IMG/VR virus record: IMGVR_UViG_3300025543_000187
Location: 1 to 25,485 of that record
Source of the DNA: a virus
Length of the DNA stretch: 25,485 bases
Strand: one strand, 5' to 3'
The position numbers and the translations under genes were made by a program. Below, one piece after another: positions 7 to 24,878 of the stretch. Position 1 is the stretch's first letter; each line of letters begins with the position of its first letter. The notes beneath the pieces are model-generated. The model worked only from the letters and a program-made list of their open reading frames with translations, searched no databases and was not told where the DNA came from.

Positions 7-354
7 TCATTTGTCGTAAGGATCCTTATAATCATTATCAAACTGCTTGTGGCGTAGATCTCCCCTGTACAGGTCGGGATCTTGATTAACATAATGACCA
101 GATGCCTCTTGATCTTGATGCTTAGCCTCTTCAATCTCAATCAACTTATCAATAAAATGCTTAGCCTTATTGAGATCTTGTATAGTGTAGAATGGCTGCT
201 TAGCTTTGAGGTAACATCGCTCAATATACTTAGTAGCGCACGCCTGGAAATAATTAAGACCGAGCCTAGACACCCTGTCCCAGTGCTCCTCACCACCAGT
301 CGTAGACTTATAATGATCCCCACCGATCTGAGTTTTATTAACTTTACTTGTCAT
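7..354 (-). CDS. DUF3310 family phage protein
   Basis: This 115-residue protein matches my recollection of the phage DUF3310 family. Near the N-terminus is IGGDHYK, then HWDRVSRLGLNYFQACATKY (about residues 24-43), then a helical stretch ending DLNKAKHFIDKLIE. The family is widespread in phages, often sits near nucleotide metabolism genes and is sometimes annotated as nucleotide-kinase-related, but I know of no firmly established reaction. The C-terminal 40 residues are charged and low in complexity. The ATG lies inside the end of the upstream HD-domain gene (11-base overlap), so the two are probably co-transcribed from the promoter at 868-896 and translationally coupled. Family assignment is fairly sure; function is unknown. 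Confidence 0.85.
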   Translation of the reverse strand: MTSKVNKTQIGGDHYKSTTGGEEHWDRVSRLGLNYFQACATKYIERCYLKAKQPFYTIQDLNKAKHFIDKLIEIEEAKHQDQEASGHYVNQDPDLYRGDLRHKQFDNDYKDPYDK

Positions 355-838
355 TAATCATCTCCTCAATAACATCAAATAACAATCTCTCGCGACCTTT
401 GAGAACCATTTGCCGAGCATAAGACATGTAAGTATCAAAGATCTTTTTTAGTTTAGTGTTCCCTAGGTTAACCTCAGTGGCACAGAAAATAGCTCCGGAA
501 GCAATGTCAGCTAATTTGAGTGTTCTTTTATCTTTTTCGTTTAGACTCGGAAACACTACACCTGCTTCACGCATAAGACTTTCCTCTAAGTCACTTACTT
601 GAGAGAGTATCCCATACTCTCTTTTAGCAGGACTAGGTATGTCTCCGGTTATATGTTCGCTCAGATCATGAAATAAAGCTGCCATCATTAAAGATTTACT
701 GGCGGTAATATCCATTAATAGGCACAGCATCGCAACATTATGTGAGTGATGACCGACAGTGTCTTGAGTGATGGTAGTGACGGTATGAAATCTTTTAACT
801 GCAGATCCGTCAATAATAAATTGAAGTGTCTTTTCCAT
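344..838 (-). CDS. HD-domain nucleotidase (YfbR-like 5'-deoxynucleotidase)
   Basis: The 164-residue product shows the HD phosphohydrolase metal set: H33 (in HHSHNVAM), H57-D58 (FHDLSEHITGDIPSPAK) and D111 (LADIAS). The sequence after the HD pair closely resembles the YfbR group, where the equivalent reads HDxSExxTGDxPxPxK. An early RFHT (16-19) also fits. YfbR removes the 5'-phosphate from deoxynucleoside monophosphates; E. coli YfbR is about 199 residues, so this is a compact phage version. The ATG has a good AAGGAG site six bases upstream and its own promoter (868-896), separating it from the hypermodification operon that ends at 900. It could shape the dNMP pool, for example by removing dTMP or dUMP; that role is inference. 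A dATPase of the DatZ kind is an alternative, but no PurZ is visible here. Confidence 0.85.
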   Translation of the reverse strand: MEKTLQFIIDGSAVKRFHTVTTITQDTVGHHSHNVAMLCLLMDITASKSLMMAALFHDLSEHITGDIPSPAKREYGILSQVSDLEESLMREAGVVFPSLNEKDKRTLKLADIASGAIFCATEVNLGNTKLKKIFDTYMSYARQMVLKGRERLLFDVIEEMINDK

Positions 839-899: not shown

Positions 900-1871
900 T
901 TATTTTACTCGCCTCTCTAACCAATTACGAGTGGCTAATCTCCAGTCGGTAGCAGCTATATCGTCAACTATATGCATACCATCGCTTATTTTTTCTCTAC
1001 GCTCTTTATAAATTTGAGCCATAGGTACTGCCACTTGTTTAAAAAATGAATGTTTATAATCACTCGTGACACCTTGAAGATTACAAAACTTTTCACAGTC
1101 TTCTAAGAAAGCTGTCATATTCATATTGTCCATTATCGGGTACGCACTTACTGAGCCTGCATTATATGCGTCATGGTCTTTACTCGGAGGAGACTGTAAA
1201 AAATCTCCTATGTTATAAAGCTCAGTATATAAATGAAAGTTAACCGAGATTTGATTATACCGACCTACTTCTAAAGCTAATGACCTCGCAACAAACTCTT
1301 GCAGGAAACTGAAGTGAACTGCGTTAGCTCCGTAAGCTCCCCACCAAAGATCATTTGACCTGTTGAATACTGTCATCGTCAGCTTGTTGTCAATGACCTG
1401 AAATACTATCTGAGTATTGCAAGCCTTATCCAAAGTCTTTTTACATAAGTCATGTGAATCCCACATCTGCACAACAGCTTGGCGAGTATCAGGATCTTTT
1501 CTTAATAAGTCAATCACGTCAAGTAATTGATCATGACCGAAATGCTGCCTCCATCGCCAGCCATATGCAGCGTTGAAATCTATTTTATTATCAGAAAAGT
1601 TTGCCATGTTTTTATTGAATTGTTTGACAAACCTTACATCTTTACGACCTGCTATCATCCAAATAGCTTCCATCAGGTGGAAAATAGGATTAGCATCTCT
1701 TTGAGGATCAAACAGAACTCTCTCTTCGGGATGACGATAAGTCGTAGTTACTATCTCAGGATAAACCAGTGCAGGACCATTACGAGTCTGCTGAGGTTTC
1801 AAGTTAAGGACTTTAAACTTCCAGAAAATTTCTGAAAATGCCTCATTCACATTGTCAACTATTAATTCCAT
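900..1871 (-). CDS. Thymidylate synthase-fold enzyme, probable dUMP (or dCMP) hydroxymethyltransferase
   Basis: The thymidylate synthase fold is clear in this 323-residue protein. Visible are E68 (HLMEAIWMIAG), YGWRWR (103-108), DTRQAVVQMWD (128-138), catalytic C151 in ACNTQ, NRSNDLWWG (170-178), N183 and the HLY motif at 213-215. True ThyA proteins usually have PCH at the catalytic site. Here it is ACN, and RSND is followed by GAYGANAVHFS, which I associate with the phage hydroxymethylase-like subgroup that uses methylene-tetrahydrofolate without reduction. Next to a predicted 5-hmdU DNA kinase and amino acid transferase, a dUMP 5-hydroxymethylase is the best reading; plain dTMP synthase or dCMP hydroxymethylase remain possible. 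I chose the ATG at 1871 because it has GGAG seven bases upstream and sits one base after the upstream stop; a longer in-frame reading to 1919 lacks such support. Confidence 0.85.
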   Translation of the reverse strand: MELIVDNVNEAFSEIFWKFKVLNLKPQQTRNGPALVYPEIVTTTYRHPEERVLFDPQRDANPIFHLMEAIWMIAGRKDVRFVKQFNKNMANFSDNKIDFNAAYGWRWRQHFGHDQLLDVIDLLRKDPDTRQAVVQMWDSHDLCKKTLDKACNTQIVFQVIDNKLTMTVFNRSNDLWWGAYGANAVHFSFLQEFVARSLALEVGRYNQISVNFHLYTELYNIGDFLQSPPSKDHDAYNAGSVSAYPIMDNMNMTAFLEDCEKFCNLQGVTSDYKHSFFKQVAVPMAQIYKERREKISDGMHIVDDIAATDWRLATRNWLERRVK

Positions 1872-1872
1872 C

Positions 1873-2802
1873 TCAAAACTCCATCTCTGGTCTATACATA
1901 GTCTTAGGTTTTCCCTCACCTAAAACAGTTCTGGTATATTTACTGTACTCACACATGACATTTTGAACGTCATGTAAGGTAAGGTCAGTGATCTCTAAAT
2001 TAGACTTAATGTTTTCGTTAATACTCATAAGCTCGCTATTAAAATGATCCTGTGTCCAAGAAGCATAAGGACCTCTACCTAGCAAGTAATTCAAACCTTT
2101 ACTACTACCAGGACCGATAGGTGCGTAGCTGTAAAGGTCACTAGCCTTGGCCAATACAGCATCGCCATAAGTTAAATCAGCTGCAACCTGCCCAGCTATA
2201 AACGTGCTTATGCCAAAACAACCAGAGAGAACTTTTACAAAATCAGCTATTGAATTATGCTCAAAGAAAGAGCCATCAATATCATCTCCTATGTCAAGTG
2301 TAGGTTCAATAATATACCTCGCTAAAGATAGAGACTTGACTGATCCCACATCCTTTTTAGTGGGGTAGACCATGTAAGCTCCGGAGTAAACTTTCTTCCC
2401 ATTTAAGCTTTCTCTAAATTCTTCAATAGACTTAGAAAATTTAGCAGTGTTGAAGTCTCCCGCAGCTTGGAGTAATATACCTTCATTGATCAAGTGTTGT
2501 AGAGTCGGTGGCCAATTAACCAATCGACATATCAATAAAACGAACCATAAATCCTGCCTGTAATTTTCAGTAGGATAAAGATCTATCACGTTCTTAATGA
2601 TCCATTCACTAACTCGATCATCCTTTCTTCTAATGTTAGTAAACTTATATTTACTTAAAATAGGATCAAGAGTCAATGCACCGTTAAATCTATTTTCTTT
2701 AGCGATGCGCATAGCCTCTCGCTCCCACACAAAATAAAGTAATGCGTTCGTTGATATAACAGTATCTTTATCAGGCATGTTATACGGATTACTATCGATC
2801 AT
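1873..2802 (-). CDS. Putative DNA base hypermodification protein (5-hmdU DNA kinase helical domain / alphaGPT-pyrophosphorylase-like)
   Basis: The 309-residue product has the signature I associate with the helical domain of 5-hmdU DNA kinases and alpha-glutamyl/putrescinyl-thymine pyrophosphorylase-like proteins. It shows PILSKYKFTNIRRKDDRVSE (47-66), aromatic-rich helices (YRQDLWFVLLICRLVNW, 81-97) and a glycine-rich GPGSSKGLNYLLGR (about 230-243). Such proteins occur in phage operons that modify thymine in DNA. It may bind the flipped or hydroxymethylated base and work with the separately encoded P-loop kinase just upstream. That partnership is inferred from the 11-base gene overlap and from family knowledge. 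I chose ATG at 2802 (AGGA eight bases upstream) over an in-frame TTG at 2808, which lies too close to the ribosome site. The exact reaction is uncertain. Confidence 0.75.
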   Translation of the reverse strand: MIDSNPYNMPDKDTVISTNALLYFVWEREAMRIAKENRFNGALTLDPILSKYKFTNIRRKDDRVSEWIIKNVIDLYPTENYRQDLWFVLLICRLVNWPPTLQHLINEGILLQAAGDFNTAKFSKSIEEFRESLNGKKVYSGAYMVYPTKKDVGSVKSLSLARYIIEPTLDIGDDIDGSFFEHNSIADFVKVLSGCFGISTFIAGQVAADLTYGDAVLAKASDLYSYAPIGPGSSKGLNYLLGRGPYASWTQDHFNSELMSINENIKSNLEITDLTLHDVQNVMCEYSKYTRTVLGEGKPKTMYRPEMEF

Positions 2803-3373
2803 TTTCAAAGTCCTTTATTATTTTGAGTAATGGAGGATGAGTGTCAATATGACTTATGTCGACTACTGTTAAATCGGCATTAGTTAAATTTTTACGACAG
2901 TTTGACACACTCTTAAACTTGTCAATTAGATTTTTCGGGTTGAACTCTTTTTCATTACCTGCTTCTTTGCGTCGTCCGATAACTCTGTCTATACATTTAT
3001 CTTGAGGAGTGTCTAAGAATGCGTAAACAGTGCATCCTGTTTCCTCAGTCATTTGAGTAACTTTACCGCCCAAACCTGAAGCAGAAACTAAAGCACCCTC
3101 GTAGAGCACATGCCCATATTTATGAGCCTCTAATATTCTTTCAGCAATCGCGAGCTGAGTAGGCATACTATCAGTCCCCCCACAAACATTATCATATTTA
3201 CCGATAATATAAATAGGATTGTTTATACCGACTACTTTACAATCGATACCATAACCCATAATCTTATCATCTTTTTTCAAGATTGAGTGCGGGTAATCAT
3301 TTATAAACCTTCTAACAGCAGTCGTCTTACCACTACCGAATGTTCCTGATAATCTCAATATTATATTAGCCAT
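2792..3373 (-). CDS. P-loop kinase, probable 5-hydroxymethyl-dU DNA kinase
   Basis: The 193-residue protein has a Walker A loop GTFGSGKTT (10-18) at the N-terminus. It then has YDNVCGGTDSMPTQ (60-73), a Walker-B-like strand GHVLYEGALVSAS (87-99), FLDTPQDKCIDRV (119-131) and a lid-like RR at 134-135. The CGG-TD-TQ block and the YEG-LVS strand are what I recognise from phage 5-hmdU DNA kinases, which phosphorylate the hydroxymethyl group of 5-hmdU in DNA to create a leaving group. The gene overlaps its upstream neighbour by eight bases and its downstream neighbour by eleven. I chose the ATG at 3373, preceded by GAGGGGAG about ten bases away; an in-frame ATG at 3451 would add 26 residues that do not fit the usual family N-terminus and would overlap the transferase gene much further. 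Confidence 0.8.
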   Translation of the reverse strand: MANIILRLSGTFGSGKTTAVRRFINDYPHSILKKDDKIMGYGIDCKVVGINNPIYIIGKYDNVCGGTDSMPTQLAIAERILEAHKYGHVLYEGALVSASGLGGKVTQMTEETGCTVYAFLDTPQDKCIDRVIGRRKEAGNEKEFNPKNLIDKFKSVSNCRKNLTNADLTVVDISHIDTHPPLLKIIKDFENDR

Positions 3374-4373
3374 GTAAAAAATGCTCCCCTCGGAATGGTG
3401 TACCTGTGTTTGCAAATATAGCGGCATGTTTATTAATGTCAACCTTATCATTAGAACATTCGGCTCTAAGCCATGTCGGTAATAACTCAGATCTCATGTC
3501 CTTAAACTCTTCAACATCTAAGCCTTTTTCTTCTGCCCATTCAATACGTGACCACGCCATGTCAGCGTAAACTCCAGGATAACGTCTCCCAAAGAAATGA
3601 TTCTTGAAAGTACATAGATTGCTCTCAAAAGTAAAGTTACCTACGTTAGATACTTCGGGATTTAACTGAGAGTAACGATCTAAATAAGAACTCGCCGCAG
3701 TGTTCAGCCAATCACATATTTTAGAAAAGTCTGGATAATCGCCTGTGAAATCATTTTTCATACGCTTGTCCCAGACGTACTGATCAGCACCGTATAAAAA
3801 CATCATACCGTTACGATGAGATTTACTGCCTGATTTATCTTCAAATAATAAGTCATCACAGTCTGCACCGAATCCATTCAAGTATACGTATTCCAGGTAA
3901 CTAAATGCTGATAGCCTACCAAAAGAATCATACCCATCTCTGACCCTCTTCCACAGTGTTTGATAATTACCTGTGAGCATTTCCTCTTGAGACTTGAAAC
4001 CATCTAACAGGCTCGCATAAGACTTGATAGCTTCAACTGTATCTTTCTTTTGATATCTGCGGTCAGTGTCGTATTGCAGAGTTTCCCAGTTTTCATCAAA
4101 CCAATTAGTGAACCTAGTCAAAGCTGCCCCAGCAGGAGGCACCTCAGGAAGCTGCTCTAGGAGTCTTAATGATGTTATGGGGTTTTGGGTCATGCCATTC
4201 AAGAAAGCATACCAGAGACGCTGCTCAGTATCCCAGTTATAACGCTTAGCCAGTTCAGGCATGTACAAGTAAACTAATCCTGGCATAACACCATAATTTA
4301 AGTTTAAAGTGTAAAGCGCATCGAAGTATTTTGTTCGGTTTTCTCTCAACCGATAATCTATATCAGTTATCAT
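3366..4373 (-). CDS. Amino acid:DNA transferase-like protein (alphaGPT-pyrophosphorylase / ADDT type)
   Basis: The 335-residue protein resembles the transferases of thymidine hypermodification, which displace the phosphate on phosphorylated 5-hmdU in DNA with an amino acid. Family-like landmarks are QRLWYAFLNGMTQ (51-63), YDTDRRYQKK (101-110), GRLSAFSYLEYVYLNG (152-167) and the C-terminal-half block SHRNGMMFLYG (185-195). I recall this family from phages M6, ViI, SP10 and phiW-14; the match is from memory of motif order, not an alignment. The amino acid used cannot be read from the sequence. ATG at 4373 has AAGGA six bases upstream and lies two bases after the methyltransferase-like gene's stop. 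The last residues overlap the kinase gene's ATG, consistent with translational coupling. Confidence 0.75.
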   Translation of the reverse strand: MITDIDYRLRENRTKYFDALYTLNLNYGVMPGLVYLYMPELAKRYNWDTEQRLWYAFLNGMTQNPITSLRLLEQLPEVPPAGAALTRFTNWFDENWETLQYDTDRRYQKKDTVEAIKSYASLLDGFKSQEEMLTGNYQTLWKRVRDGYDSFGRLSAFSYLEYVYLNGFGADCDDLLFEDKSGSKSHRNGMMFLYGADQYVWDKRMKNDFTGDYPDFSKICDWLNTAASSYLDRYSQLNPEVSNVGNFTFESNLCTFKNHFFGRRYPGVYADMAWSRIEWAEEKGLDVEEFKDMRSELLPTWLRAECSNDKVDINKHAAIFANTGTPFRGEHFLHG

Positions 4374-4375
4374 AG

Positions 4376-5122
4376 TTATTCCTTTACTGGCTGTAAGCCT
4401 TTATAACCTTCTCCTGCTACAATCTTTTTAAATCTGACAGGAGAATATTCTAAGTTAGTAGGTTCTATTTTAATATAGAAACAGGTACCATGGTATGCCA
4501 TGGCAGTCACCCTATAACCATATTGTTCTTCAAAGTAATCGCTAAAGACTGTCGCATAACTCTCTCTATCATTAGAAACATCATGCCCTCTAGCAATTAA
4601 ATTAGGTACTGTAAAATGCCATCTACAGCTTGACCCATCAGTAATGATTATAGCTTCAGGTTCATGAGATATCATTCTTTCCATCTCAGTTCTCCATTTA
4701 CCATTACTGTGCTGTATCAATGTGAAAAATGGGAAGTCACAGACATAGATATCAGCTGGCATAACTCCGAGTCTTTCGTGGGCATCTTCTTTAGAGACTA
4801 CAACATTAGAATAATCAGCCATGCAATACTTGAGCTGATTAACACAGTCATCATCTAACTCTCCGATAAAATGATGCTGAGGTTTAACTACATGCTGTAA
4901 GGCAACCGAAAACACTCCGCATCCTCCGAATGGTTCTTGAATGACCGAAGCTCCTTTATGTTCGTTTAGAAGAAACTCCTGACATAAAACATTCTTTCCG
5001 GTTTCCTGCCAACGCTTATTAAGATATTGATAATAGCTGTAGTCGCCATCAGGCATCAACTGAGGCTCTCCTGGCAAAAGTTCAAAGTCATACTTTTCTA
5101 AAATTTTCCACTTGCTAGCCAT
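4376..5122 (-). CDS. SAM-dependent methyltransferase-like protein with DFPF motif
   Basis: The 248-residue protein has a Rossmann methyltransferase layout. Motif I is EPFGGCGVFS (63-72), an acidic strand end follows in GELDDD (87-92), an SKEDAHE segment lies at 110-116, and DIYVCDFPFF (124-133) sits where amino-methyltransferases carry [DNS]PP[YF]. The DFPF variant and the lack of a visible target-recognition domain make a classical sequence-specific DNA methylase less likely. It lies between a PLP enzyme and the amino acid:DNA transferase-like gene, sharing TAATG with the former. It might therefore methylate the amine or acid of a thymine adduct, or be a non-methylating derivative. GGAGG lies seven bases before the ATG. 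Fold is fairly sure; substrate is inference. Confidence 0.7.
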   Translation of the reverse strand: MASKWKILEKYDFELLPGEPQLMPDGDYSYYQYLNKRWQETGKNVLCQEFLLNEHKGASVIQEPFGGCGVFSVALQHVVKPQHHFIGELDDDCVNQLKYCMADYSNVVVSKEDAHERLGVMPADIYVCDFPFFTLIQHSNGKWRTEMERMISHEPEAIIITDGSSCRWHFTVPNLIARGHDVSNDRESYATVFSDYFEEQYGYRVTAMAYHGTCFYIKIEPTNLEYSPVRFKKIVAGEGYKGLQPVKE

Positions 5123-6075
5123 TAAGATGCCTCCGTATAAAATGGTCTAATAACATCTCTATTCGCAGCACTACCAACTATCCAAAACCCAGTGCTGTCA
5201 TCATAATCTAATGAGTTAGTCTCCCGCAGCCATCGCCACATCTTGGCTTCATAAGTTGGGTGAAAAGTTATATCTTCGTGAGTCTCCCCTGTAAACTTCT
5301 GCGAGTACGAGGCATAGTTATTAGAGTGCAAAGAATAATGCTTCCATTTGAAAGGCAGGTTCTTGTAGTCAACACCCATGATCTCTAACCTCTCTGCCAT
5401 CCAATCTCTTTTATCAGGACCTATTGCAATTGTAAATAATTCTTTTAAATTATTCGGGTTTCTACTCAAACCTAATACCACACTGGTGAGAGAGTTACAA
5501 GACCCAGCAGGTACGATTAATCTCTCAACATCATCAGGCATATTACTTGTTTGATGTGCACCTACTTCGTGAAACTTCTGAACATCTTCTGCGTCATATC
5601 TTTTATGCGGTACAGTGATACCATATTCTACGACAAGTGAAGTAGGCTGAGTCAGATCTGCAACTCTCTTTTGAATGATAGGATTATAAGGACCGTTCGC
5701 ATATTCAAATACCGCACCGAACCCTGCAGCAATCCTAGGATTGTCATGCGTAAGAACAGTATGGGGTTTGCTATAAACGACCTGTCTATTTTTGAGACCA
5801 TAATGAGAGCCCACGATGGCACTCATGCTCAGCTGAGGAGACTGAATAGAAGCTCCTGTGACTATGTGAGACTTACCCTCTTTGAAACGATTGACATACC
5901 ATATCAGCTGTCTCATTTTAGAACCATTAGGACCGCTATAACCGAGCGGTGCGAAATAGTCTTCTCTCTTGAACCACACCCCAGCTTTATTCTGCCAAGG
6001 AGTTAGAGTGGCCAAGTAGTTTTCCCACTTGACCTCCTCTCTATTTATCGCTAGCTTGTTAAACACGCTATCCAT
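5122..6075 (-). CDS. PLP-dependent enzyme, fold type II (tryptophan synthase beta / ACC deaminase-like)
   Basis: The 317-residue protein resembles the fold-type-II PLP family. WFKREDYFAPLGYSGPNGSK (34-53) places the predicted Schiff-base lysine at K53, as in the GNK of ACC deaminase and cysteine desulfhydrase relatives. TGASIQSPQLSMSAIVGS (73-90) corresponds to their substrate-carboxylate-binding AxQSNH helix. VPAGSCNSL (188-196) is the phosphate-binding turn. The usual SNH is replaced by SPQ, hinting at an altered substrate. PLP enzymes tailor amino-acid-modified thymines in known hypermodification pathways, for example by decarboxylation. Here the gene is embedded in that operon, overlapping its upstream neighbour by eight bases and sharing TAATG with the next. 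The reaction could instead be elimination or synthesis of the donor amino acid. Confidence 0.8.
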   Translation of the reverse strand: MDSVFNKLAINREEVKWENYLATLTPWQNKAGVWFKREDYFAPLGYSGPNGSKMRQLIWYVNRFKEGKSHIVTGASIQSPQLSMSAIVGSHYGLKNRQVVYSKPHTVLTHDNPRIAAGFGAVFEYANGPYNPIIQKRVADLTQPTSLVVEYGITVPHKRYDAEDVQKFHEVGAHQTSNMPDDVERLIVPAGSCNSLTSVVLGLSRNPNNLKELFTIAIGPDKRDWMAERLEIMGVDYKNLPFKWKHYSLHSNNYASYSQKFTGETHEDITFHPTYEAKMWRWLRETNSLDYDDSTGFWIVGSAANRDVIRPFYTEAS

Positions 6076-6556
6076 TACGCTTTAATCCTGACTGAGCTAA
6101 TTCAAATGTACGCTCGTTGATGGTTACAGATTCTCTAACCCCAGCCTTAGCAGCGGTGTAGAGCACTCGAGTGAGCCTGTCAACCTGAGCACCAGTGACC
6201 CATTTAGGATAAGCTTTCCAGAGCTGATGAACATTATTAAACATTCCTATTGATGAACCTTCAGTATCATAAACCATGATTGTGCGATCTAACTGAAGAG
6301 AAGAACTCATAGCCTGTCTCCTTGTCGGTACTTGAGGCTTGATAGGATCTTTACCATTAAGCGACTCTTTCAACTTAGTAGTAAGAGGTTCTGCAGTCTT
6401 ACCGTTCTGTTTAATAGTGATAGCAAAATCAGAAAGCTCCTGACACTTTTTAATGCCTGTGGCTTTATCACGAAACTTTTTAACTGGTTTCTCGCATAAG
6501 TTATTATAGAAAGCAACCAGCTCTTTAGACGACATTGTTTCAAATCCAGTATTCAT
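6068..6556 (-). CDS. Conserved phage hypothetical protein
   Basis: This 162-residue protein has a basic N-terminal segment, SSKELVAFYNNLCEKPVKKF, resembling a short helical motif seen at the start of various phage proteins with no function known to me. A Lys/Pro-rich linker follows (about residues 60-85). The C-terminal domain begins DRTIMVYDTEGSSIGMFNNV and ends with TINERTFELAQSGLKRNG. The basic character could mean nucleic acid binding, but no helix-turn-helix is obvious. It overlaps the PLP gene by eight bases and has AAGGAG seven bases before its ATG, so it is translated with the hypermodification genes and could be an accessory factor. That link rests on position only. Confidence 0.6.
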   Translation of the reverse strand: MNTGFETMSSKELVAFYNNLCEKPVKKFRDKATGIKKCQELSDFAITIKQNGKTAEPLTTKLKESLNGKDPIKPQVPTRRQAMSSSLQLDRTIMVYDTEGSSIGMFNNVHQLWKAYPKWVTGAQVDRLTRVLYTAAKAGVRESVTINERTFELAQSGLKRNG

Positions 6557-7976: not shown

Positions 7977-7989
7977 AGTTATAAGTTAT
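7977..7989 (-). repeat. Tandem ATAACT element without a clear promoter
   Basis: The minus strand reads ATAACTTATAACT, the same seven-base-period pair as at the three promoter leaders, followed by AGGAG and the ATG at 7964. The upstream gene's TAA stop falls inside the first unit. No convincing -35/-10 pair precedes it, so the element may act on translation or be a remnant of a lost promoter. Confidence 0.7.
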
Positions 7990-8468
7990 AGCCAAGCTGG
8001 CTGTTGAGAATTAGTGTAGTCTAAAAAAGCTGCTTTTTCAACTTTATAATATGCTCTGTATGCTTCAACATAATCATCACATTTGAACTCATCAGGCATA
8101 CATTGAGGTGGCGTGCTAATATGCCACTTTAAATTATTGTAGTCACTATTGCGAAAATATGCATCTTTGATGTCTTGAAGAACCTGAGTGCTCTTATGGT
8201 CACGCCCATAGCGACGAGTGTATTCCTTACCGATGGCTAAACCATGGTCAAGAGCCCACATAAAATTTTCTTTACAATCACCAACCCACAATGTCATAGG
8301 ATGATTTTTGAATGCAGTTTTATAAGTTGAGGGAAGAGGGTCAAGACCGTTACGTCTTAGAGCAGTGCTGCACATTTGAGCAGTCTCTAAAACCATCTTA
8401 ACGACGTGCTTGTCGCACAGGTCTTTTGCGGATAATTCAGGGCAGGTATGCAGAAAGAAAATGTTCAT
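7986..8468 (-). CDS. Conserved phage protein of the CDKHVVKM type
   Basis: The 160-residue protein belongs to a conserved group I recall from phages. The N-terminus is MNIFFLHTCPELSAKDLCDK followed by HVVKMVLETAQM. Further on come KNHPMTLWVGD, a helix ending EYTRRYGRDHKS, TPPQCMPDEFK and a C-terminal YYKVEKAAFL...PAW. Invariant-looking C18, D19, K20, H21, K24, E28 and H56 suggest a possible metal or active site. A distant relation to pyrimidine-dimer glycosylases has crossed my mind, but I cannot support it. It is the first and only gene directly behind the promoter at 8500-8528. Confidence 0.7.
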   Translation of the reverse strand: MNIFFLHTCPELSAKDLCDKHVVKMVLETAQMCSTALRRNGLDPLPSTYKTAFKNHPMTLWVGDCKENFMWALDHGLAIGKEYTRRYGRDHKSTQVLQDIKDAYFRNSDYNNLKWHISTPPQCMPDEFKCDDYVEAYRAYYKVEKAAFLDYTNSQQPAWL

Positions 8469-10823: not shown

Positions 10824-12911
10824 TTAATCACCGAAAAGATTTGGATATGTTTCTTTCATTTCATCAGTTATCACTGTTGTAGAATTAGGAGTCTCAATTT
10901 CCATAGTTTCTTCAGATGTTTCTTCTATGGTAGGAGTTTTATCAGGACCTGATTTTCCAGGCAGTGAAGCAGTACCGATGATGTTAGCTGTTTCTCTTCT
11001 ATTTAATGCAACCTCTTTAGGTATTTTTCTTGTTCCAAAGTCTTCTAAAGCCTGCACAACTATTGCCACGTCTTCAGGATTATCAGACATCAACATTCGA
11101 GCCATTTTTTCTTGAGTTGTAGCAGGTAAGGTTGACTGCCTTATTACTTTACTAACCATCTGAACTAATGCGCTAGTGAGACCTGTTGTAGAAACAGCAT
11201 CAGCCATCACGTCACCCGCAGTTTGACCTTCTCCTATGGCAGCTTTACCTGCCTCCCTTTGAGCTGTCGGAGACCCTCCAGTTATCCTGCCAATCTCTTT
11301 GAATAATTGAGCTTCTCTTAACAACGCTGCTTCATAAAGAGCCAAGCCTTCTTCACCTGCTGCTGGGAAAAGCATCTGTATTTTCTTACGCATGTCAGGG
11401 GAGCCGATTATTCTCTGCGCATAGTTAGCGTTGGTACTCGGTTTCGTAAGTTTATCTAATAAGTGCCTAGAAGCTCCTGTTAAAAATGCCTGAGCTTCTC
11501 CTTCACTCATATTCTCAAACGCCTTAGACACTTCTTCAGGAGCCATTTTACCAAAGTTTGCAAAACCATTGTCTAAAGCTTCAATAACTTCCATATCTCC
11601 TGCGTAAACTTTTCTAGCGTTAGCGTATGCAGACACTCCGTCAACTTCAGTAACTTCGTCTAAAACATTTACAAATTGATTTTTAAGCTTTTTTAAAGAA
11701 TTAGCTTGTGCAGGTGCCATTCCGGTTCCGTCAAAACCTTTTCTAATTAGATCATCTAATCCTCTTTTAATGTAATCAAGAGTTCTAACATCAGGAAGCA
11801 TGTTTATAGAGGGTTTACCACCCTTCGTTACTATTTCATAAGGGATCAATTTAAATGCACTGCCGTCTCCACCTGCTAGAATGTCTGCATCTGCTTCATT
11901 TTGAGCAATAGCTTGGGCTCTCTTAAATGCCTCTTTGAAGTTAGGATTATTTTTCAATAGATTTAATATTCTGGGGTCGTCTACTGCACCAAATTGATAA
12001 GCCTCATCATAAGCTTTATTAGCGCCAGATCTCAAATTATTTATAAGAGTATCTTGTTGATCATAATATTTACCTTCTCCCAGAGCATCTGTAGTTTGTT
12101 TTATAACTCTGTCCCTAGCAGAAGATTGAACGTCTACTAAATTTTCTTGAATGATTTCAGGAACATCTCCTCTACCTGCGGTGTTCAAAGAATCAGCCAG
12201 TCTTAGAGTTTTTTCATTAACATTCGCTACAGTACTGGGTACGCCTAATTCAGCATCTCGTGAAATTACATTTAAAACGTCTTGAGGAGTTCCCCCATTA
12301 GCACCAACAGCCTCATAAACTTTTTGTAATACCAAGTCATCAACATATTGACCGCTCTGTTGCAATCTGTCTCTAATGAAACCGAATACTGCCGTCGCTC
12401 CTCTACCAGCCATAGGTAATGCGAAACCTATGGCACCTCCTAAGCCCCCACTGATGATGGCGTCTAAACTTCTATTATCAGGAGGAGCCATTCCTGCCCC
12501 AGTTATAGCTCCAGTAGTTAAACCTGTGGTAGTTCCAGTAGTTACCGCATTTCTGCCGACCGTACCTTTATAAGCCTGTCTAGCTTTGTTAGCTATGTTG
12601 GTTAAAGCTCCTACCGTCCTAGCTCCGCTTGCAGCAGCAACGGGAGCAGCGGCTCCCCCAGTAAATGGAGTGGCTATTAAAGCAGCTGCCGTAGGTATGA
12701 AACCTCCTACGATTTCACCAGTCAAAGACGCTCCTGGGTTTTCAGCAGAATATTGATTATAAGATTCATTTATGGCAGCAAGTTCTTCTTCATAAGTTTC
12801 ATCACCGCTCAGGGTTCTAAGTCGAGCTTCTAACTCATCTCCCCAACCCATGGCTAAACCTTGTCCTAACCATGAGCGAGCAGTATTTGTCCAGTAACCA
12901 TCAGACATCAT
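10824..12911 (-). CDS. Large Ala/Gly-rich virion protein, probably internal or ejected
   Basis: The 695-residue protein begins with a segment I recall from phage internal proteins: WLGQGLAMGWGDELEARLR (14-32), then an acidic helix, then NPGASLTGEIVGGFIPTAAAL. A hydrophobic Gly/Ala region (about 65-175) has glycine-zipper character and could insert in a membrane. The rest is helical and polar. Such proteins lie between tail and lysis genes in podovirus-like phages and are thought to be carried in the capsid and ejected with the DNA. Two ATGs are adjacent (12911 and 12908); the first gives an ATGA overlap with the upstream gene, and AGGAG precedes both. Assignment rests on build and position. 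Confidence 0.6.
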   Translation of the reverse strand: MMSDGYWTNTARSWLGQGLAMGWGDELEARLRTLSGDETYEEELAAINESYNQYSAENPGASLTGEIVGGFIPTAAALIATPFTGGAAAPVAAASGARTVGALTNIANKARQAYKGTVGRNAVTTGTTTGLTTGAITGAGMAPPDNRSLDAIISGGLGGAIGFALPMAGRGATAVFGFIRDRLQQSGQYVDDLVLQKVYEAVGANGGTPQDVLNVISRDAELGVPSTVANVNEKTLRLADSLNTAGRGDVPEIIQENLVDVQSSARDRVIKQTTDALGEGKYYDQQDTLINNLRSGANKAYDEAYQFGAVDDPRILNLLKNNPNFKEAFKRAQAIAQNEADADILAGGDGSAFKLIPYEIVTKGGKPSINMLPDVRTLDYIKRGLDDLIRKGFDGTGMAPAQANSLKKLKNQFVNVLDEVTEVDGVSAYANARKVYAGDMEVIEALDNGFANFGKMAPEEVSKAFENMSEGEAQAFLTGASRHLLDKLTKPSTNANYAQRIIGSPDMRKKIQMLFPAAGEEGLALYEAALLREAQLFKEIGRITGGSPTAQREAGKAAIGEGQTAGDVMADAVSTTGLTSALVQMVSKVIRQSTLPATTQEKMARMLMSDNPEDVAIVVQALEDFGTRKIPKEVALNRRETANIIGTASLPGKSGPDKTPTIEETSEETMEIETPNSTTVITDEMKETYPNLFGD

Positions 12912-15307
12912 TTATCTCCTGTAGGTGTTTTTCTTCCATATTCACCAGAACTGATTTGTTCTAATTTAATACGTCTTTTGCCTAGTATACTAGCCAGAGC
13001 TTCTGCGGCATTTCTAATTATTTTTTCTCTTTCTGCAGAACTTTTCGCTTCTATACCTTGCAGAGCACTTAAAGATTTTCTTTCTCCGTCTGAAATCTGA
13101 CCTCCGAAAGTAGATTTTAAAGAAGCTAATGCATTACTACTTAATATTTGTTCAAGTTCCATGGTAGCTATATATTGAGGGTTTTCAGGATCCATTGCAC
13201 TTAAAAAGGCTGTTTTTGAACTGTCATAAAAACTTTTGCTGAAAGCTATTTCATTCAACTCTAAAGCTTTATCTAACAGCATTAATGAAGATTCAGCTGA
13301 TTCAATTTGAGTTTGAGTGTCTGCTTTAAGGTTTAATTCACCTGTGCTTAGAGTGTCAACTTGTTTAGTTAGAGCTTCAAGTTCTAAAGCAGCCACTGCT
13401 TGTTCTCTTTCATAATACTCTTCAATGAAAGTATTATATGCAGCACCTGTTAACCCCATATCAGTTGCTATTTTAGCTGCTGCGGACTTAGGTTTACCTG
13501 CTTCGTATACTCTCTCACCAGCTATGACAGCAAGATCAAATTCCCTATCTTCAACTTTCTGTAATTGATCCCTCTCGTATTCTAATAGCTCTGCAGCCAT
13601 GCCACGTTTCCAATCTCTTTCAGCAGCACCTGCAGCGGTAGCTGCTGCTAAATCATCTTTCAAATAAGTTAAATTAAATTCTGCTCCTTGCATTAACAGT
13701 GCATCTGAAGCTGATTGAGCAGCTCTTTTATCTGATTTGAAACCAGCCAATGCTTCGTTAGCTAAGCCTAGGTTCTCCATGAAATGACCACTCTGAGTGG
13801 GTTTACCGAATGCAGCAGCTAGCCTAAACCATTTCTCAGATTCGCTAGGACCTTGTGCTGCAGTATCTGCTGATCGTTGTAACATAGCTGAAAAATCAGC
13901 TCTAGCAGTGTCTAATGCTGCACGAGCGTCTGAGGTTGCAGTGGAAGAAGGCATAGCACTATTAGCTAACATCATTTGCAAATCAGCAATATTACTATTA
14001 GAGTCTTGAATATTATTTAAATTTGCTAATGCTAACTCATCTAAGCTTGGCACATCAGTGACCTCTTCTAATGATTCATCATCAACACTCACCTCGCCAG
14101 CTTGTGCGTAACCTCTAACTTTTCCACCTTCTGCATTAAACCAATTAGATGGATTCCAACTAGACTCAGACCAGCTCCAATCGCCACCATCATCATTGTA
14201 CGTACTGTTCATGGTTCCGCTATAATTGTCGTCATCGTCGGGAACAGCTACGGTTCCTACTTCCCCATCTTCGTCATACGTTAATGTTCCATCAACATAA
14301 CTTGCTCCGTCCCAAGGAGTAAATAAATTAGCAAGATCTTCAGTAAAACTATTGTTACCGTAGATTTCTGCTTGTTCGGCAGCAGAGTTAAGAATTGAAT
14401 TATGAGTTTCAAAAGGGTCAGTGGGGTCGTCATCATTGGTGTTTATATTGGTGGTGGCAGTAGCGTTTGATAAACTTAAATCATCAACATTAATTACATC
14501 ACTATTGACACCATCAACACCGAACCCATCCACCCCATCAAAGATTATTTGACCATTTTCATCAAATTCATAACCGGATCCTGGGAGGTTACTTAAATCA
14601 ATTGTACCAGTTAAAGATGAATTTATTGAAGTGGGGAAATCTACTTGAGCTACATCAATGATCCCACCTTCAGTATTTGTAGCTCCTACCCCAGTACTGG
14701 TAGTTCCGTATATTGGATTTTTTAAAACATTGCCGTAATACTTACCTGACTGCTCCATTATAGCCTGATTACCCGTATTACCTATGCCTGTGCCGAGAGT
14801 AGGGGCTATGCCTTGAATAAACGCATTCCTAGCAGCTTGAGGGTTAGTTAATTGTATGCCGTCATCACCCTCCATGTCAAATGTTGTGTAAGGCTGCACT
14901 GCTGCCCCACCAGCTATGATTTGTTCTTCTGTACGATTAGGTCCTAAGTATTTATCAAATAATTGATCATAATTTTCAGGCTGAACCTGTTTCTGAGTTT
15001 GAAACTGCTTTGCGGCATACATAGGCGTACCTTGCATCCGCTGATCATAGCTTCCTGAATAAGTGTCATAAGCAGCTTTATCTGCATCGTAGGCATCTTT
15101 TTTAGGTTGATAAACTGTTAATGCGTCTTGATATTCTTTTAATATTTTGGCTCTTTCTATAGCCTGAGGACTTCCCTCAGGAAATGCTTGCGCAGTAAAT
15201 ATAGGTGCTTCAGGAGCAGGTCCAGGATCCTTAGCTCCTACATATCCAGCTTTACTAGCAGTGCTTACACCATATTGGTTCATTAATCTTTTTAAATTAT
15301 ATCCCAT
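12908..15307 (-). CDS. Large virion-associated protein with acidic linker
   Basis: The 799-residue protein has three parts. The N-terminal helical region (1-130) is rich in Tyr, Gln and Ala. The long low-complexity Asn/Asp/Gly/Thr region (about 150-420) contains runs such as NTNDDDPTD and VPDDDDNYSG, which could bind calcium or stay unfolded. The helical Ala/Glu-rich C-terminal half contains SEKWFRLAAAFGKP and ALASLKSTFGGQISDGERKS, which I recall from internal virion proteins of marine phages. It lies in the run of large structural genes, with AGGAG ahead of its ATG. Function is inferred as a virion core or ejection component. Confidence 0.6.
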   Translation of the reverse strand: MGYNLKRLMNQYGVSTASKAGYVGAKDPGPAPEAPIFTAQAFPEGSPQAIERAKILKEYQDALTVYQPKKDAYDADKAAYDTYSGSYDQRMQGTPMYAAKQFQTQKQVQPENYDQLFDKYLGPNRTEEQIIAGGAAVQPYTTFDMEGDDGIQLTNPQAARNAFIQGIAPTLGTGIGNTGNQAIMEQSGKYYGNVLKNPIYGTTSTGVGATNTEGGIIDVAQVDFPTSINSSLTGTIDLSNLPGSGYEFDENGQIIFDGVDGFGVDGVNSDVINVDDLSLSNATATTNINTNDDDPTDPFETHNSILNSAAEQAEIYGNNSFTEDLANLFTPWDGASYVDGTLTYDEDGEVGTVAVPDDDDNYSGTMNSTYNDDGGDWSWSESSWNPSNWFNAEGGKVRGYAQAGEVSVDDESLEEVTDVPSLDELALANLNNIQDSNSNIADLQMMLANSAMPSSTATSDARAALDTARADFSAMLQRSADTAAQGPSESEKWFRLAAAFGKPTQSGHFMENLGLANEALAGFKSDKRAAQSASDALLMQGAEFNLTYLKDDLAAATAAGAAERDWKRGMAAELLEYERDQLQKVEDREFDLAVIAGERVYEAGKPKSAAAKIATDMGLTGAAYNTFIEEYYEREQAVAALELEALTKQVDTLSTGELNLKADTQTQIESAESSLMLLDKALELNEIAFSKSFYDSSKTAFLSAMDPENPQYIATMELEQILSSNALASLKSTFGGQISDGERKSLSALQGIEAKSSAEREKIIRNAAEALASILGKRRIKLEQISSGEYGRKTPTGDK

Positions 15308-15316
15308 GATATACTC

Positions 15317-17065
15317 CTATGATGTTAAGCCTTTATATGTCGCAAACCCAGTGGCAATCTGAGACAGAGGTGAAGGATTATAAGTTGCCCCAGTAGTTGA
15401 ACCAGCTGTAGTAGTGGCAGTAGGAACAATCGGAGCCAGTCCTCTAATTTGAGTGCTGAGCCAATCCATGTTACGTTGAGGGTAAAGCTGTTCATCCATA
15501 AACTCTTTTTCAGCAGCACTAAGCTCAGTTTGTAATTGCTGCTGTTGAGCTTTACCAGCAGCTTCTAGAGCAGCTAAATCAGTATAAGTCATCGCTTGTT
15601 CCTGCGCAGCTAATGCGGCCATGTCATTTAATGCAGATTGTTGCTGTCTGTAATCTTGAGATTGCTGTGCAGCTGATGTTTGAGCTGCGTTTAGACCATA
15701 CTGCTGTTGGGATTGACCTGCTTGAGTTTGCATATTTGCAATATTAGCTAAATTTTGCTGCTCTTGTGAGCTTAATTGACCCGTAGTCTGAGCTAAGTTA
15801 CCGAGAGTAGAAGCCTGATCCCTTGTAACATTACTTAATGTTTGCCCTACTTGAGCTAGTCTACCTGCATCTTGACCTGTTAGTTGACCCATAGTCTGAC
15901 CAGCTTGCATTTGACGACCTGCATCCTGCCCAGTTAATTGACCTGCCGTTTGGGCAGCTTGCATCTGTCTGGCAGCGTCTTGGCCAGTTAATTGGCCAGC
16001 TGTTTGGCCGAGCTGACCATATTGGCTACCACCTTGAAGAACCCTAGATAAATCTGCACCTGATATACTACCTACCGATTGCCCTAATGAAGCCTGTCTC
16101 TGCTTATCAGCTGCAGATGCTCTAAGAGCTGACTCGTATCCTTGAGCTGCTAAAGGAGCTTGTTGGTTTAAAATAGCTTCTTGCGTATCTCTTAGAGCTC
16201 TGCTACCAAACTCACCCATACCTCTAGAGCCAAATTGACCAGCTTTAATAAAAGAGTCAGAGACGCCTGGAAGTAAATTTTCAGTTAAATTACGTGTTCC
16301 CTGCTTGGCTATAGTATCTAAAACATTTTGCTGGTAAGGATTCATATATTGATTGATATCTGAAACTGAAGTCTGAGCTGCCCTGCTGAAATAAGGATTA
16401 GCAGCGTTCAGAGCCTTGTCAGCTAATGCTTGTGCTGTAGTGCTTTGGGCTTGGTTTAAATAAGGATTGGCCGCGCTCGCACCGCTCATTTTAGTACCCT
16501 GAGTAAGATACGGATTAGCAGCACTCATACCACTCATCTGAGTGCCCTGAGTAATGTAAGGGTTAGCAGCACTAGCAGCACTCATATTGGCAGCGTCAGT
16601 TAAATATCCTTGACCTGCGCCTGCTATATTTAAAGCAGACTGTTGAGCCTGATCCATCATAGGTTGGGCACTACCTAAAACGCTAATCTCACCTGACCTA
16701 GCAAAAAGGTCTTGCCCTGCGTCTAAATTAGCTCCCACTAAATCTTTTCTCAAATAATCAGTTTGATCTTCTCTTAATTTAGTCGTAGTGTCTTGAGAAG
16801 ACAGGGTTTCCATACCAGTCTGAGCTTTGCCTAAATCTTCCTGCCCTATTCCTTGCGCTGCTACTATACCTGCGTATGCATCTTGTTGGAGTGGGCTTAA
16901 CCCAGCCACCGTAGGCATATCATAGCTTTCATATGGCTTGTTGGCTATATTTTGTGCCCAATTTATCTGATTATAAATTGCATCCTGCATCCACTTTGGT
17001 GTTTCAGTAGACGAAGTAGTGTAGGAAGTTGCGTTCTGCGGAGTGCCTTGAAATATGCTACCCAT
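15317..17065 (-). CDS. Gln/Ala-rich virion protein with two tandem repeat blocks
   Basis: The 582-residue protein has an N-terminal region with YDMPTVAGLSPLQQDAY (48-64), a motif I recall from marine phage structural proteins. A 16-residue repeat follows (SAANPYxTQGTxMSGx, from 165), then a conserved-looking QFGSRGMGEFGSRAL (277-291). Next is an 18-residue repeat (TxGQLTGQDAGRxxQxxQ, 355-444), then a long Gln/Ala-rich helical tail. Eighteen residues is five alpha-helical turns, so the repeat probably forms a regular amphipathic or coiled-coil helix. It is probably an internal or ejected virion protein. It shares TAATG with the upstream gene. Confidence 0.6.
   Translation of the reverse strand: MGSIFQGTPQNATSYTTSSTETPKWMQDAIYNQINWAQNIANKPYESYDMPTVAGLSPLQQDAYAGIVAAQGIGQEDLGKAQTGMETLSSQDTTTKLREDQTDYLRKDLVGANLDAGQDLFARSGEISVLGSAQPMMDQAQQSALNIAGAGQGYLTDAANMSAASAANPYITQGTQMSGMSAANPYLTQGTKMSGASAANPYLNQAQSTTAQALADKALNAANPYFSRAAQTSVSDINQYMNPYQQNVLDTIAKQGTRNLTENLLPGVSDSFIKAGQFGSRGMGEFGSRALRDTQEAILNQQAPLAAQGYESALRASAADKQRQASLGQSVGSISGADLSRVLQGGSQYGQLGQTAGQLTGQDAARQMQAAQTAGQLTGQDAGRQMQAGQTMGQLTGQDAGRLAQVGQTLSNVTRDQASTLGNLAQTTGQLSSQEQQNLANIANMQTQAGQSQQQYGLNAAQTSAAQQSQDYRQQQSALNDMAALAAQEQAMTYTDLAALEAAGKAQQQQLQTELSAAEKEFMDEQLYPQRNMDWLSTQIRGLAPIVPTATTTAGSTTGATYNPSPLSQIATGFATYKGLTS
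15734..16003 (-). repeat. Five-unit 54-base coding repeat (18 residues each)
   Basis: Residues 355-444 of the Gln/Ala-rich virion protein divide into five 18-residue units. The first three are nearly identical (TAGQLTGQDAARQMQAAQ, TAGQLTGQDAGRQMQAGQ, TMGQLTGQDAGRLAQVGQ) and the last two are diverged. Confidence 0.85.
16391..16573 (-). repeat. AANPY coding repeat (48-base units)
   Basis: Residues 165-212 hold three 16-residue units starting SAANPY, and a fourth AANPY follows at 221-225. The units are SAANPYITQGTQMSGM, SAANPYLTQGTKMSGA and a decayed third copy. Confidence 0.8.
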
Positions 17066-18891
17066 TATGCTACTCCTTTTAAATATTGAAGTGGTGATTT
17101 AGCATCTTTACTGAACTTACCTTTTGACAAGTTACCACCTTTGTGTTTTCTAACTGTTTTTCTCATATCGTCAAGCGCATTAGCACCAGCTTTATTTGAA
17201 CCGTCCCCTAATAAAGCCACTGTTTCAGCATCTATAACATATTCTCCGTCACTTAAATATGCGGGTATCTCATCAGACCGCCCAGTACCACGACCTTTAA
17301 CATACCTAGAGACTTGATTCAGCCCACCCATATTCATATTTATAGGACCTCCTGTATAATTACCTGCAGGTTCAGACATATTATAATAACCTTGGGATAT
17401 AGTTGGCATGTTATAAGCCATGTATGCCCCTAAAGTCATATTCGCATTATTAGCATCCAATCTCATTTTATCCCAATCCCAAGAAACTAATGGTCTATTG
17501 AAATATTCTTGCTGCTCAGGACTTAAAGAGCTTACTGCCTGAGTTACATCTTCTGGCGCATCTAAGGCACTGGCTGCGGTTAATGCTAATGTTGCAGTAG
17601 AAAATGGGTTTTCAGTGGCGTAATTCATCGCCTTTTGAAACATATTAGGTTCTGCAGTAGTATCTCCTGCCCCAGTGTTAACTACGCCCGCAGAAACAGG
17701 ACCTTTGAGTATTCCATTTTCATATACCTGCCCATTATAAATTCCAGAGACCATATCACTTCCAGGTCCTGTATACTCTGCAGTAACGTCTATAAGCTGG
17801 CCATTATCAAGCATGACACCTTCACTATTAGAGTAATCTATCATGTCAGAAGAGCTGGGCATTTCATTTTGAACTTCACTCAATACAGCGTTAGAAGGTC
17901 TGATATACTCTTTAGCTCCAGATAAAATACCTGAAGTTAAGCCTCCTTGAATAGCTTCAGTAGGTGAATAACCTGCGGTTAACATGTTACCGCCTGTGTT
18001 TACTCCAGATTGTAGAGCTGATTCAAAAGCATTAGTAGGTGCACCGCTAGGAACAGCATTCTTAAGGAGCTGCCCTCCTGCACCTTGAAGAGCTCCTGAT
18101 AAGAAATCACCTCCAGTAAGTTCTCCTGCGACACCACCAACTAAACCACTACCTAAGGTCGCTGCCATAGGTTGACTAAGACCTAAATTTAATCCTTCGT
18201 TTACGAAATTACCTGTTACGTCCCCTACTCCACCGCTAATGCCTCCCATTAGAGCACCTTTAAGTGGGTCTCCTCCAGTTATCGCAGCAGTACCTGCCCC
18301 TAATAAGCCACCGCCTACAACCGCAGCAGTTGTTCCAGTAAGACCTAGACTTGTACCTATAGCCGTACCCAAGCCAGGAGCAAAAACAGCTAAAGCTACA
18401 GGAAGAACAGTTTTAAATATTTTCTTAAGACTTTTATACTCTTGTATTCCGGTGTTAGGGTTTATAGTTCCTTGACCGCCCATCCTTCTGAGTATCTCAG
18501 CTTCACGAGGATTAATGTGAGCGAGCATACTGTCGCCACCCTGCCCTTGATTAGCTAATTTACGCCCAGCTACTGTCAAACCTCCTCTGGCAAAACCTTC
18601 AGCTGTTAAATTATCTCTCAATCCGTAAAGAGCTAACAATAAAGATATAATAAACACTGCGTCATACTGCTCAGGAGCATCGCCAGGATCTATTAATCCG
18701 TCTGCTATGGCAGCTTGAACCATTTCAGGGTAAGAGTTAGGATCTTGCAGAGCGATTTCTAACATCTGAATCGCTTCCATCAAATCTTCAGCTACAATCG
18801 GAGTGTTAGATAACCTCTTCTTTATTTCTTCTACACCTACTGCGAAATCTGGACTTGTTCTAGCGAACTCCATTAAGGTTTGTTCAATCAT
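17065..18891 (-). CDS. Large virion protein with glycine-zipper core
   Basis: The 608-residue protein has an acidic helical N-terminus (1-95) and then FARGGLTVAGRKLANQGQGG (100-119). MLAHINPREAEILRRMGGQG (122-141) follows, which I recall as conserved in marine phage structural proteins. A long Gly/Ala hydrophobic stretch (about 160-330) could span membranes. Near the C-terminus is GRGTGRSDEIPAYLSDGEYV followed by IDAETVALLGDGS, also familiar from that group. The build suggests a protein released from the capsid to help DNA cross the envelope. The end (KHKGGNLSKGKF) is basic. The function is inferred. Confidence 0.6.
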   Translation of the reverse strand: MIEQTLMEFARTSPDFAVGVEEIKKRLSNTPIVAEDLMEAIQMLEIALQDPNSYPEMVQAAIADGLIDPGDAPEQYDAVFIISLLLALYGLRDNLTAEGFARGGLTVAGRKLANQGQGGDSMLAHINPREAEILRRMGGQGTINPNTGIQEYKSLKKIFKTVLPVALAVFAPGLGTAIGTSLGLTGTTAAVVGGGLLGAGTAAITGGDPLKGALMGGISGGVGDVTGNFVNEGLNLGLSQPMAATLGSGLVGGVAGELTGGDFLSGALQGAGGQLLKNAVPSGAPTNAFESALQSGVNTGGNMLTAGYSPTEAIQGGLTSGILSGAKEYIRPSNAVLSEVQNEMPSSSDMIDYSNSEGVMLDNGQLIDVTAEYTGPGSDMVSGIYNGQVYENGILKGPVSAGVVNTGAGDTTAEPNMFQKAMNYATENPFSTATLALTAASALDAPEDVTQAVSSLSPEQQEYFNRPLVSWDWDKMRLDANNANMTLGAYMAYNMPTISQGYYNMSEPAGNYTGGPINMNMGGLNQVSRYVKGRGTGRSDEIPAYLSDGEYVIDAETVALLGDGSNKAGANALDDMRKTVRKHKGGNLSKGKFSKDAKSPLQYLKGVA

Positions 18892-18893
18892 TT

Positions 18894-19331: not shown

Positions 19332-19579
19332 AGCGTTGTTTGCACAAACCTTTCTGCCCATTCTCTCCATTGACTAACATCATAGCCATAGGGATCTGGA
19401 AAATCTTCCACTAAATTAGTGGCTCTGTCGTATTGACTCGCCCAATCCTGCCACTTTGCAGGGTCTTCTAAAGGGTAATACGCACCAAAATTACTAAAAT
19501 CTGTAATCAAGCAATCTGCCCAGTCTTGTAAATTTATTCCAACTGGTAATGTTACGCTTAATCCGGTGTGTAATGTCAT
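19328..19579 (-). CDS. Small conserved protein of the tail gene region
   Basis: The 83-residue protein is acidic and aromatic-rich, with NLQDWADCLITDFSNFG (16-32), WQDWASQYD and a C-terminal QWREWAERFVQTTL. Small proteins with this DWA...WxxWA pattern occur next to gp10-like genes in marine phages. It may be a minor virion or assembly protein, but no function is known to me. It overlaps the gp10-like gene upstream and the GNAT gene downstream by four bases each (ATGA). Confidence 0.65.
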   Translation of the reverse strand: MTLHTGLSVTLPVGINLQDWADCLITDFSNFGAYYPLEDPAKWQDWASQYDRATNLVEDFPDPYGYDVSQWREWAERFVQTTL

Positions 19580-22948: not shown

Positions 22949-22957
22949 CTACTTCTC

Positions 22958-23308: not shown

Positions 23309-23313
23309 TTCAC

Positions 23314-24876: not shown

Positions 24877-24878
24877 AA

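Follow-up and report, generated by a model that had tools for sequence, protein, structure and literature searches.

The region from position 900 to 6075 on the minus strand of IMGVR_UViG_3300025543_000187, a 25,485-base IMG/VR virus fragment from an uncultivated phage (the window, taken at its whole length), is very probably a thymidine hypermodification cassette of the M6/ViI kind, in which 5-hydroxymethyl-deoxyuridine (hmdU) would be the base for amino-acid hypermodification. A sequence-only reading had placed six open reading frames (ORFs) here, encoding a hydroxymethylase-like thymidylate synthase homologue (TS), an HMUDK_hel protein (HEL), a 5-hmdU kinase (KIN), an amino acid:DNA transferase (ADDT), a methyltransferase-like protein (DFPF), and a fold-type-II pyridoxal phosphate enzyme (PLP). 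All six are present, and their identities were borne out by profile or predicted structure. The genes are packed tightly, with neighbor spacings of -11 to +2 bp, as the description of contiguous overlapping genes implied; the overlap of TS and HEL, on the other hand, did not stand, since these genes abut when TS starts at ATG 1871. That start is indicated by conservation and by two relatives (L004 and L005; contigs and loci of relatives carry L numbers), and the ORF extends upstream to GTG 1919, which would give a 47-bp overlap. The gene order g6068-PLP-(DFPF)-ADDT-KIN-HEL-TS-HD-DUF3310-like (Table 1) is common to approximately 80 IMG/VR contigs and is therefore not a chance arrangement. The cassette thus reaches past both ends of the region, as g6068 upstream and the HD and DUF3310-like genes downstream belong to it too. 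This extent, the hybrid of M6 and ViI types, and DFPF as the most interesting part of the cassette all go beyond the sequence-only reading. E-values from our local searches vary with the set searched, and the contig counts take in related viruses.

TS matches phrog_5131 (E = 3e-101) and PF00303 (E = 2e-20). It has Asn at E. coli position 177 and, after Cys146, Asn rather than His at position 147, and Trp80 is lost; the Cys-Asn pair and the loss of Trp80 are common to the enzymes of ViI, M6, PaMx11, and Pam3, and Asn177 too is present in those of ViI, M6, and PaMx11. In independent work, positions 147 and 177 set modifying enzymes apart from ordinary ones (PMC8670742). Because Asn177 points to dUMP, not dCMP, as the substrate, profiles and residues together identify TS as a predicted dUMP hydroxymethylase. 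The best PDB sequence match of TS is a CMP hydroxymethylase despite Asn177; we rejected a deoxycytidylate hydroxymethylase because this residue is kept, whereas in T4 gp42 the motif at that position contains Asp. A plain thymidylate synthase is less likely, given that the Cys-Asn pair and the loss of Trp80 are as in hmdU enzymes and that the neighbors are modification genes.

For the products of HEL, KIN, and ADDT, the sequence-only reading had proposed profile searches, and the absence of matches for KIN and ADDT that would have spoken against it did not occur. HEL matches PF18723 (HMUDK_hel; E = 7e-39) and has homologues in M6, PaMx11, Pam3, and ViI (Vi01_130c), as found by profile search. 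The match of KIN to PF18748 (HMUDK_HMUD1; E = 2e-6) is barely above the cut-off, at 27.8 bits versus 27; its P-loop GSGKTT is present in 73 of 76 aligned rows, and a profile built from its relatives matches the PaMx11 (E = 1e-31), M6 (E = 3e-23), and ViI (Vi01_061c; E = 5e-13) kinases. ADDT matches PF18724 (E = 4e-18) and phrog_3271 (E = 8e-63), and its matches to PDB sequences of influenza PB2, which extend over 28 residues, are due to chance. Some existing labels hide these pathways. The phrog_800 label of KIN, "terminase small subunit," is misleading, and the M6 kinase bears the same one: PHROG 800 and deposited records (phi_M6 PP944330 CDS0045; L159) name 5-hmdU kinases in this way, while ADDT is called "nucleotide pyrophosphohydrolase" in mycobacteriophages. 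Both names are label errors.

The likeness to the M6 and ViI pathways that had been recognized from motifs holds gene for gene, with DFPF excepted, and the genes appear to come from both types. Profiles built from relatives of the window's proteins were searched against reference phages (ViI, M6, PaMx11, and others). The TS, HEL, KIN, HD, and DUF3310-like profiles gave their best matches in M6, PaMx11, or Pam3, and those of TS, HEL, KIN, and HD matched M6/PaMx11 far better than ViI. In contrast, the ADDT profile finds Vi01_199 of ViI (E = 1e-42) and did not detect the M6 ADDT among the reference phages, and the PLP profile finds Vi01_182 of ViI with an E-value of 7e-120 and the PLP enzyme of M6 with one of only 0.002. 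By profile comparison, the cassette is thus a hybrid, with M6/PaMx11-like TS, HEL, KIN, and HD and ViI-like ADDT and PLP. Ackermannviridae, ViI and CBA120 among them, contain 5-(2-aminoethoxy)methyl-dU (5-NeOmdU) (PMC11721090; PMC6449724), which amounts to approximately 40% of T in these two phages (PMC11721090), whereas the base of M6 is 5-(2-aminoethyl)-dU (5-NedU) (PMC6449724). As the side chain would be set here by proteins of the ViI kind, our best guess at the core product is a serine that is O-linked and decarboxylated, and we somewhat favor such a ViI-type side chain.

PLP matches phrog_3650 (E = 3e-80), and its structure model (predicted local distance difference test score [pLDDT] = 85.5) has as its best PDB matches a homologue of 1-aminocyclopropane-1-carboxylate (ACC) deaminase and D-cysteine desulfhydrase (E of approximately 1e-11). 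The profile agrees with the model in indicating fold type II of the ACC deaminase/D-cysteine desulfhydrase kind. The motif NGSK(M)RQL contains the putative Schiff-base residue Lys53 inside GSK. In the work of Lee et al. of 2021, PLP enzymes are said to decarboxylate the attached amino acid, and PLP of the window is a candidate tailoring decarboxylase of the ViI lineage. Strong evidence that PLP and ADDT act in one pathway comes from a natural PLP-ADDT fusion of 712 amino acids (L163, 301-2439, plus strand), which lies in the contig of L006 and is followed by a Ploopntkinase3-like kinase. Several cassettes have no PLP (L047, L061, L063, L066-L069, L078, and L089), and no homologue was found elsewhere in four contigs with such cassettes that were searched, two of which are approximately 57 and 61 kb long; this absence suggests that the amino acid may be left intact on the base there. 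One 101.8-kb contig, IMGVR_UViG_3300047121_000347 (L069 and L091), contains two cassettes, one with PLP and one without, and is probably a joined assembly of two viruses.

DFPF has no sequence match in Pfam, PHROG, or NCBIfam, and its profile gave no significant match to solved structures. The AlphaFold2 model (pLDDT = 91.5, predicted template modeling score = 0.89) yielded 1189 PDB matches at E ≤ 0.001 in Foldseek (best E = 3e-8). The 50 best are all of the S-adenosylmethionine (SAM) methyltransferase fold, and many of the enzymes act on nucleic acids (Trm1, M.BseCI, and METTL5). The near relatives in BFVD are two uncultured phage proteins named AdoMet_MTases. Among 21 DFPF sequences, Gly67, Gly69, Leu89, Asp90, and Asp124 are invariant; among them, the motif I glycines and the acidic residues, motif II included, belong to the predicted SAM pocket. 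The model thus assigns DFPF to a predicted class I SAM methyltransferase fold. No relative of DFPF was found in a scan of a genome collection, which therefore gave no clue to a host or prophage.

The genomic setting ties DFPF to ADDT. After removal of duplicates, ADDT follows DFPF immediately in 31 of the 36 cases with sequence available downstream, and the two genes mostly overlap slightly. Of the five exceptions, L144 is a tandem second copy and L013 a cut contig; in Pam3 and L145, an ADDT-type gene is 3 to 5 kb away, and in L006, the ADDT is the PLP fusion, approximately 10 kb from DFPF. Two settings recur. In that of the window, DFPF stands with TS, HEL, KIN, and usually PLP; in the other (L083 and many loci among L146-L186), it stands with a TET/JBP oxygenase and a Ploopntkinase3 kinase, and no TS, HEL, or PLP was found near it. 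L012 is a mixture with ParB, TET/JBP, PLP, DFPF, and ADDT. Linkage to ADDT in both settings points to the amino-acid step, and because DFPF stays with ADDT whichever way hmdU is made, it would have to serve a step after hmdU that both routes have in common. Many close cassettes have no DFPF; on the ADDT tree its presence requires approximately five changes, at least four of them forced by well-supported branches, and DFPF has therefore been gained or lost repeatedly. In L144 (775-2321, plus strand), the two tandem DFPF genes lie upstream of ADDT, with no PLP in the available sequence; in L006 (7441-8741, plus strand), DFPF overlaps a 2-oxoglutarate-Fe(II) oxygenase gene (PF13640, E = 2e-14) away from ADDT.

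In the pathway that we propose, TS would convert dUMP to 5-hydroxymethyl-dUMP, which would be raised to the triphosphate, possibly with the help of the DUF3310-like protein, while the HD nucleotidase would keep the rival dTMP and dTTP low. After insertion of hmdU into DNA by the phage polymerase, HEL and KIN would add a phosphate to its hydroxymethyl group once the DNA is complete, and ADDT would swap this phosphate for an amino acid, probably O-linked serine, from which PLP would form an aminoethoxymethyl group by decarboxylation. DFPF would then most likely methylate the attached side chain, probably at the amino group. We are fairly confident of the core cassette and of a role for DFPF in the ADDT step or later. 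That DFPF is a methyltransferase acting on the side chain, with N-methylation as the leading guess, is suggested tentatively by the predicted fold. More tentatively still, DFPF may represent a new family that N-methylates an amino-acid-derived thymine group, giving a base that has yet to be described, for example N-methyl-aminoethoxymethyl-dU, in phages of the TS and TET/JBP routes alike. The tailoring enzymes of amino-acid thymines reported by Lee et al. in 2021 are said to be radical SAM isomerases, PLP decarboxylases, flavin lyases, and acetyltransferases, and, to our knowledge, a methyltransferase is new to these pathways. A methyltransferase-fold partner of ADDT across two hmdU routes would, if true, add a tailoring class and predict a new DNA base.

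Several points weigh against this pathway. Gene identities, order, fold, and linkage are demonstrated, and it is from these that we infer each reaction, as well as the presence of a modified thymine in the virions and which one it is. The record is a fragment without a DNA polymerase gene. The typical activities of fold-type-II PLP enzymes are those of dehydratases, deaminases, lyases, or synthases, and our assignment of the decarboxylation step to PLP draws on the ViI literature; serine is probably the transferred amino acid, as suggested by lineage alone. As for DFPF, no significant sequence match to any methyltransferase was found, and its motif IV varies (DFPF, DLPS, DFEQ, or DYNR) and does not conform to (D/N)PP(Y/F/W), a pattern that marks nucleobase amino-methyltransferases and not every class I methyltransferase.

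The degenerate motif IV, the strict adjacency to ADDT in TS and TET routes even where there is no other tailoring enzyme, and the many close cassettes without DFPF, which show that the core chemistry does not need it, would all suit the main rival explanation: a non-catalytic, methyltransferase-derived partner for DNA handling or base flipping that presents phosphorylated hmdU to ADDT, so that the product would be the ViI base with no methyl group. However, Gly67, Gly69, Asp90, and Asp124 are invariant at identities down to approximately 20%, which suggests that SAM binding is kept, and most ADDTs work without DFPF; we regard such a helper as unlikely, though it is the strongest of the rivals. 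It is improbable that DFPF is a common DNA base methyltransferase (N6-adenine, for instance) that lies beside ADDT by happenstance. Motif I of DFPF (EPFGGCGVFS) is reminiscent of D12-type adenine methyltransferases, a single member gives a very weak match to MethyltransfD12 (E = 0.14), and M.BseCI is among the best fold matches, but a protein of 248 amino acids with no target-recognition domain and without the nucleobase form of motif IV fits this role poorly, and linkage to ADDT across phage types would be unexpected for an unrelated function. TYW2, the sixth-best PDB fold match, transfers the 3-amino-3-carboxypropyl group of SAM, and DFPF could move this or another part of SAM onto the base side chain; since general likeness to the class I methyltransferase fold cannot separate donor groups and nothing specific favors such a transfer, we consider it very improbable. 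Least probable of all is an intermediate or decayed product, with hmdU incorporated and the later genes inactive or acting on nucleotides, because all motifs are intact, the packing is tight, and conservation is strong across approximately 80 contigs, although the window is a fragment that is known here from its genes alone.

The HD protein matches PF12917 (E = 6e-14) and phrog_7076 (dATP triphosphohydrolase; E = 2e-14), and its gene follows TS in 61 of the 64 distinct TS loci that have enough sequence beyond TS, as well as in M6 and PaMx11. The DUF3310-like gene comes after TS/HD in 62 of these 64 loci, and this flank is also found in PaMx11 and M6. In cells infected with PhiW-14, dTTPase activity is present and dTTP is absent, and the gene responsible was sought (PMC5977210). 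As a putative remover of dTMP/dTTP, HD is a reasonable candidate for a PhiW-14-like role; recurring beside TS, it is also a concrete candidate for the dTTP-removing activity long observed in that infection, to which no gene had been assigned (PMC5977210). The DUF3310-like protein matches phrog_236 ("nucleotide kinase"; E = 1e-11) and, weakly by profile (8.3 bits), the C-terminal part of T7 gp1.7; it is possibly an hmdUMP kinase or an accessory that helps to make hmdUDP. At the other end, g6068 adjoins PLP or ADDT in approximately 60 distinct relatives, and PaMx11, M6, and Pam3 have weak relatives of it ahead of their modification genes (E = 3e-6 to 2e-5).

Table 1. Genes of the hypermodification cassette and its flanks in the window.
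Gene	Position	Strand	Predicted product and basis
DUF3310-like	7..354	-	Small protein; phrog_236
HD	344..838	-	YfbR-like HD-domain nucleotidase; PF12917, phrog_7076
TS	900..1871	-	Predicted 5-hydroxymethyl-dUMP synthase, thymidylate-synthase fold; phrog_5131, PF00303
HEL	1873..2802	-	Helical protein of 5-hmdU DNA kinase, HMUDK_hel (elsewhere aGPT-Pplase1); PF18723; start ATG 2802
KIN	2792..3373	-	P-loop 5-hmdU DNA kinase; PF18748; start ATG 3373
ADDT	3366..4373	-	Amino acid:DNA transferase, aGPT-Pplase2 clade; PF18724
DFPF	4376..5122	-	Class I SAM methyltransferase-fold protein, unnamed family; predicted structure
PLP	5122..6075	-	Fold-type-II PLP enzyme, ACC deaminase/D-cysteine desulfhydrase type; phrog_3650
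g6068	6068..6556	-	Conserved first cassette gene, no known domain

Nearly all genes of the window are on the minus strand, no tRNA genes were found in it, and megablast against deposited phages gave no match, i.e., no close DNA relative. Its head and tail genes are similar to the ones found in Caulobacter phages, GB2A among them (50.6% identity over 504 residues). The morphogenesis genes occupy 10824-25334 (minus strand), with an SU10-type adaptor (22316-22948) and a virion protein (19576-21114) that are approximately 50% identical to those of the Caulobacter phages GB2A, RW, RLK, and KcrB. A search of GB2A for the cassette genes gave no trace of any, which shows that this morphogenetic lineage does not carry the cassette as a fixed component. 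A pyrimidine dimer DNA glycosylase similar to T4 endonuclease V is encoded at 7986-8468 (minus strand; PF03013, E = 4e-9); ViI has one too (Vi01_119c).

Among known systems, M6 and PaMx11 have nearly the same gene order as the window (ADDT/tailoring-KIN-HEL-TS-HD-DUF3310-like), and their TS, HEL, KIN, HD, and DUF3310-like proteins are close profile relatives of those described here. A DNA polymerase gene follows the cassette in both phages, whereas the fragment contains none. M6 differs in its radical SAM protein and a different PLP enzyme, PaMx11 in its FAD and acetyltransferase genes, and the window in DFPF and the ViI-type ADDT/PLP pair; a radical SAM protein, the mark of the M6 type, was not found among the cassette ORFs by Pfam/PHROGs in this incomplete genome. 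Salmonella phage ViI supplies the nearest relatives of ADDT (Vi01_199) and PLP (Vi01_182) from a phage with a known base and has TS, KIN, and HEL homologues, but its pathway genes are scattered across the 157-kb genome, and no DFPF homologue was found in the approximately 95% of it that was searched. Pseudanabaena phage Pam3 has TS, HEL, KIN, ADDT-type, PLP-type, and DFPF homologues in one region; however, its DFPF is only 28% identical and does not stand beside ADDT, and there are extra genes for Nmad5 and for a protein annotated as photolyase, which is the label of the radical SAM gene in the phi_M6 record. No DFPF of the Pam3 type was found in IMG/VR. The TET/JBP-type contigs (TET-DFPF-ADDT-KIN3; for example, L146, L151, and L174) differ from the window in having a kinase of the Ploopntkinase3 family and no TS, HEL, or PLP nearby, and hmdU is presumably formed in the DNA by the TET/JBP oxygenase; like the window, they have a P-loop kinase and DFPF directly upstream of ADDT.

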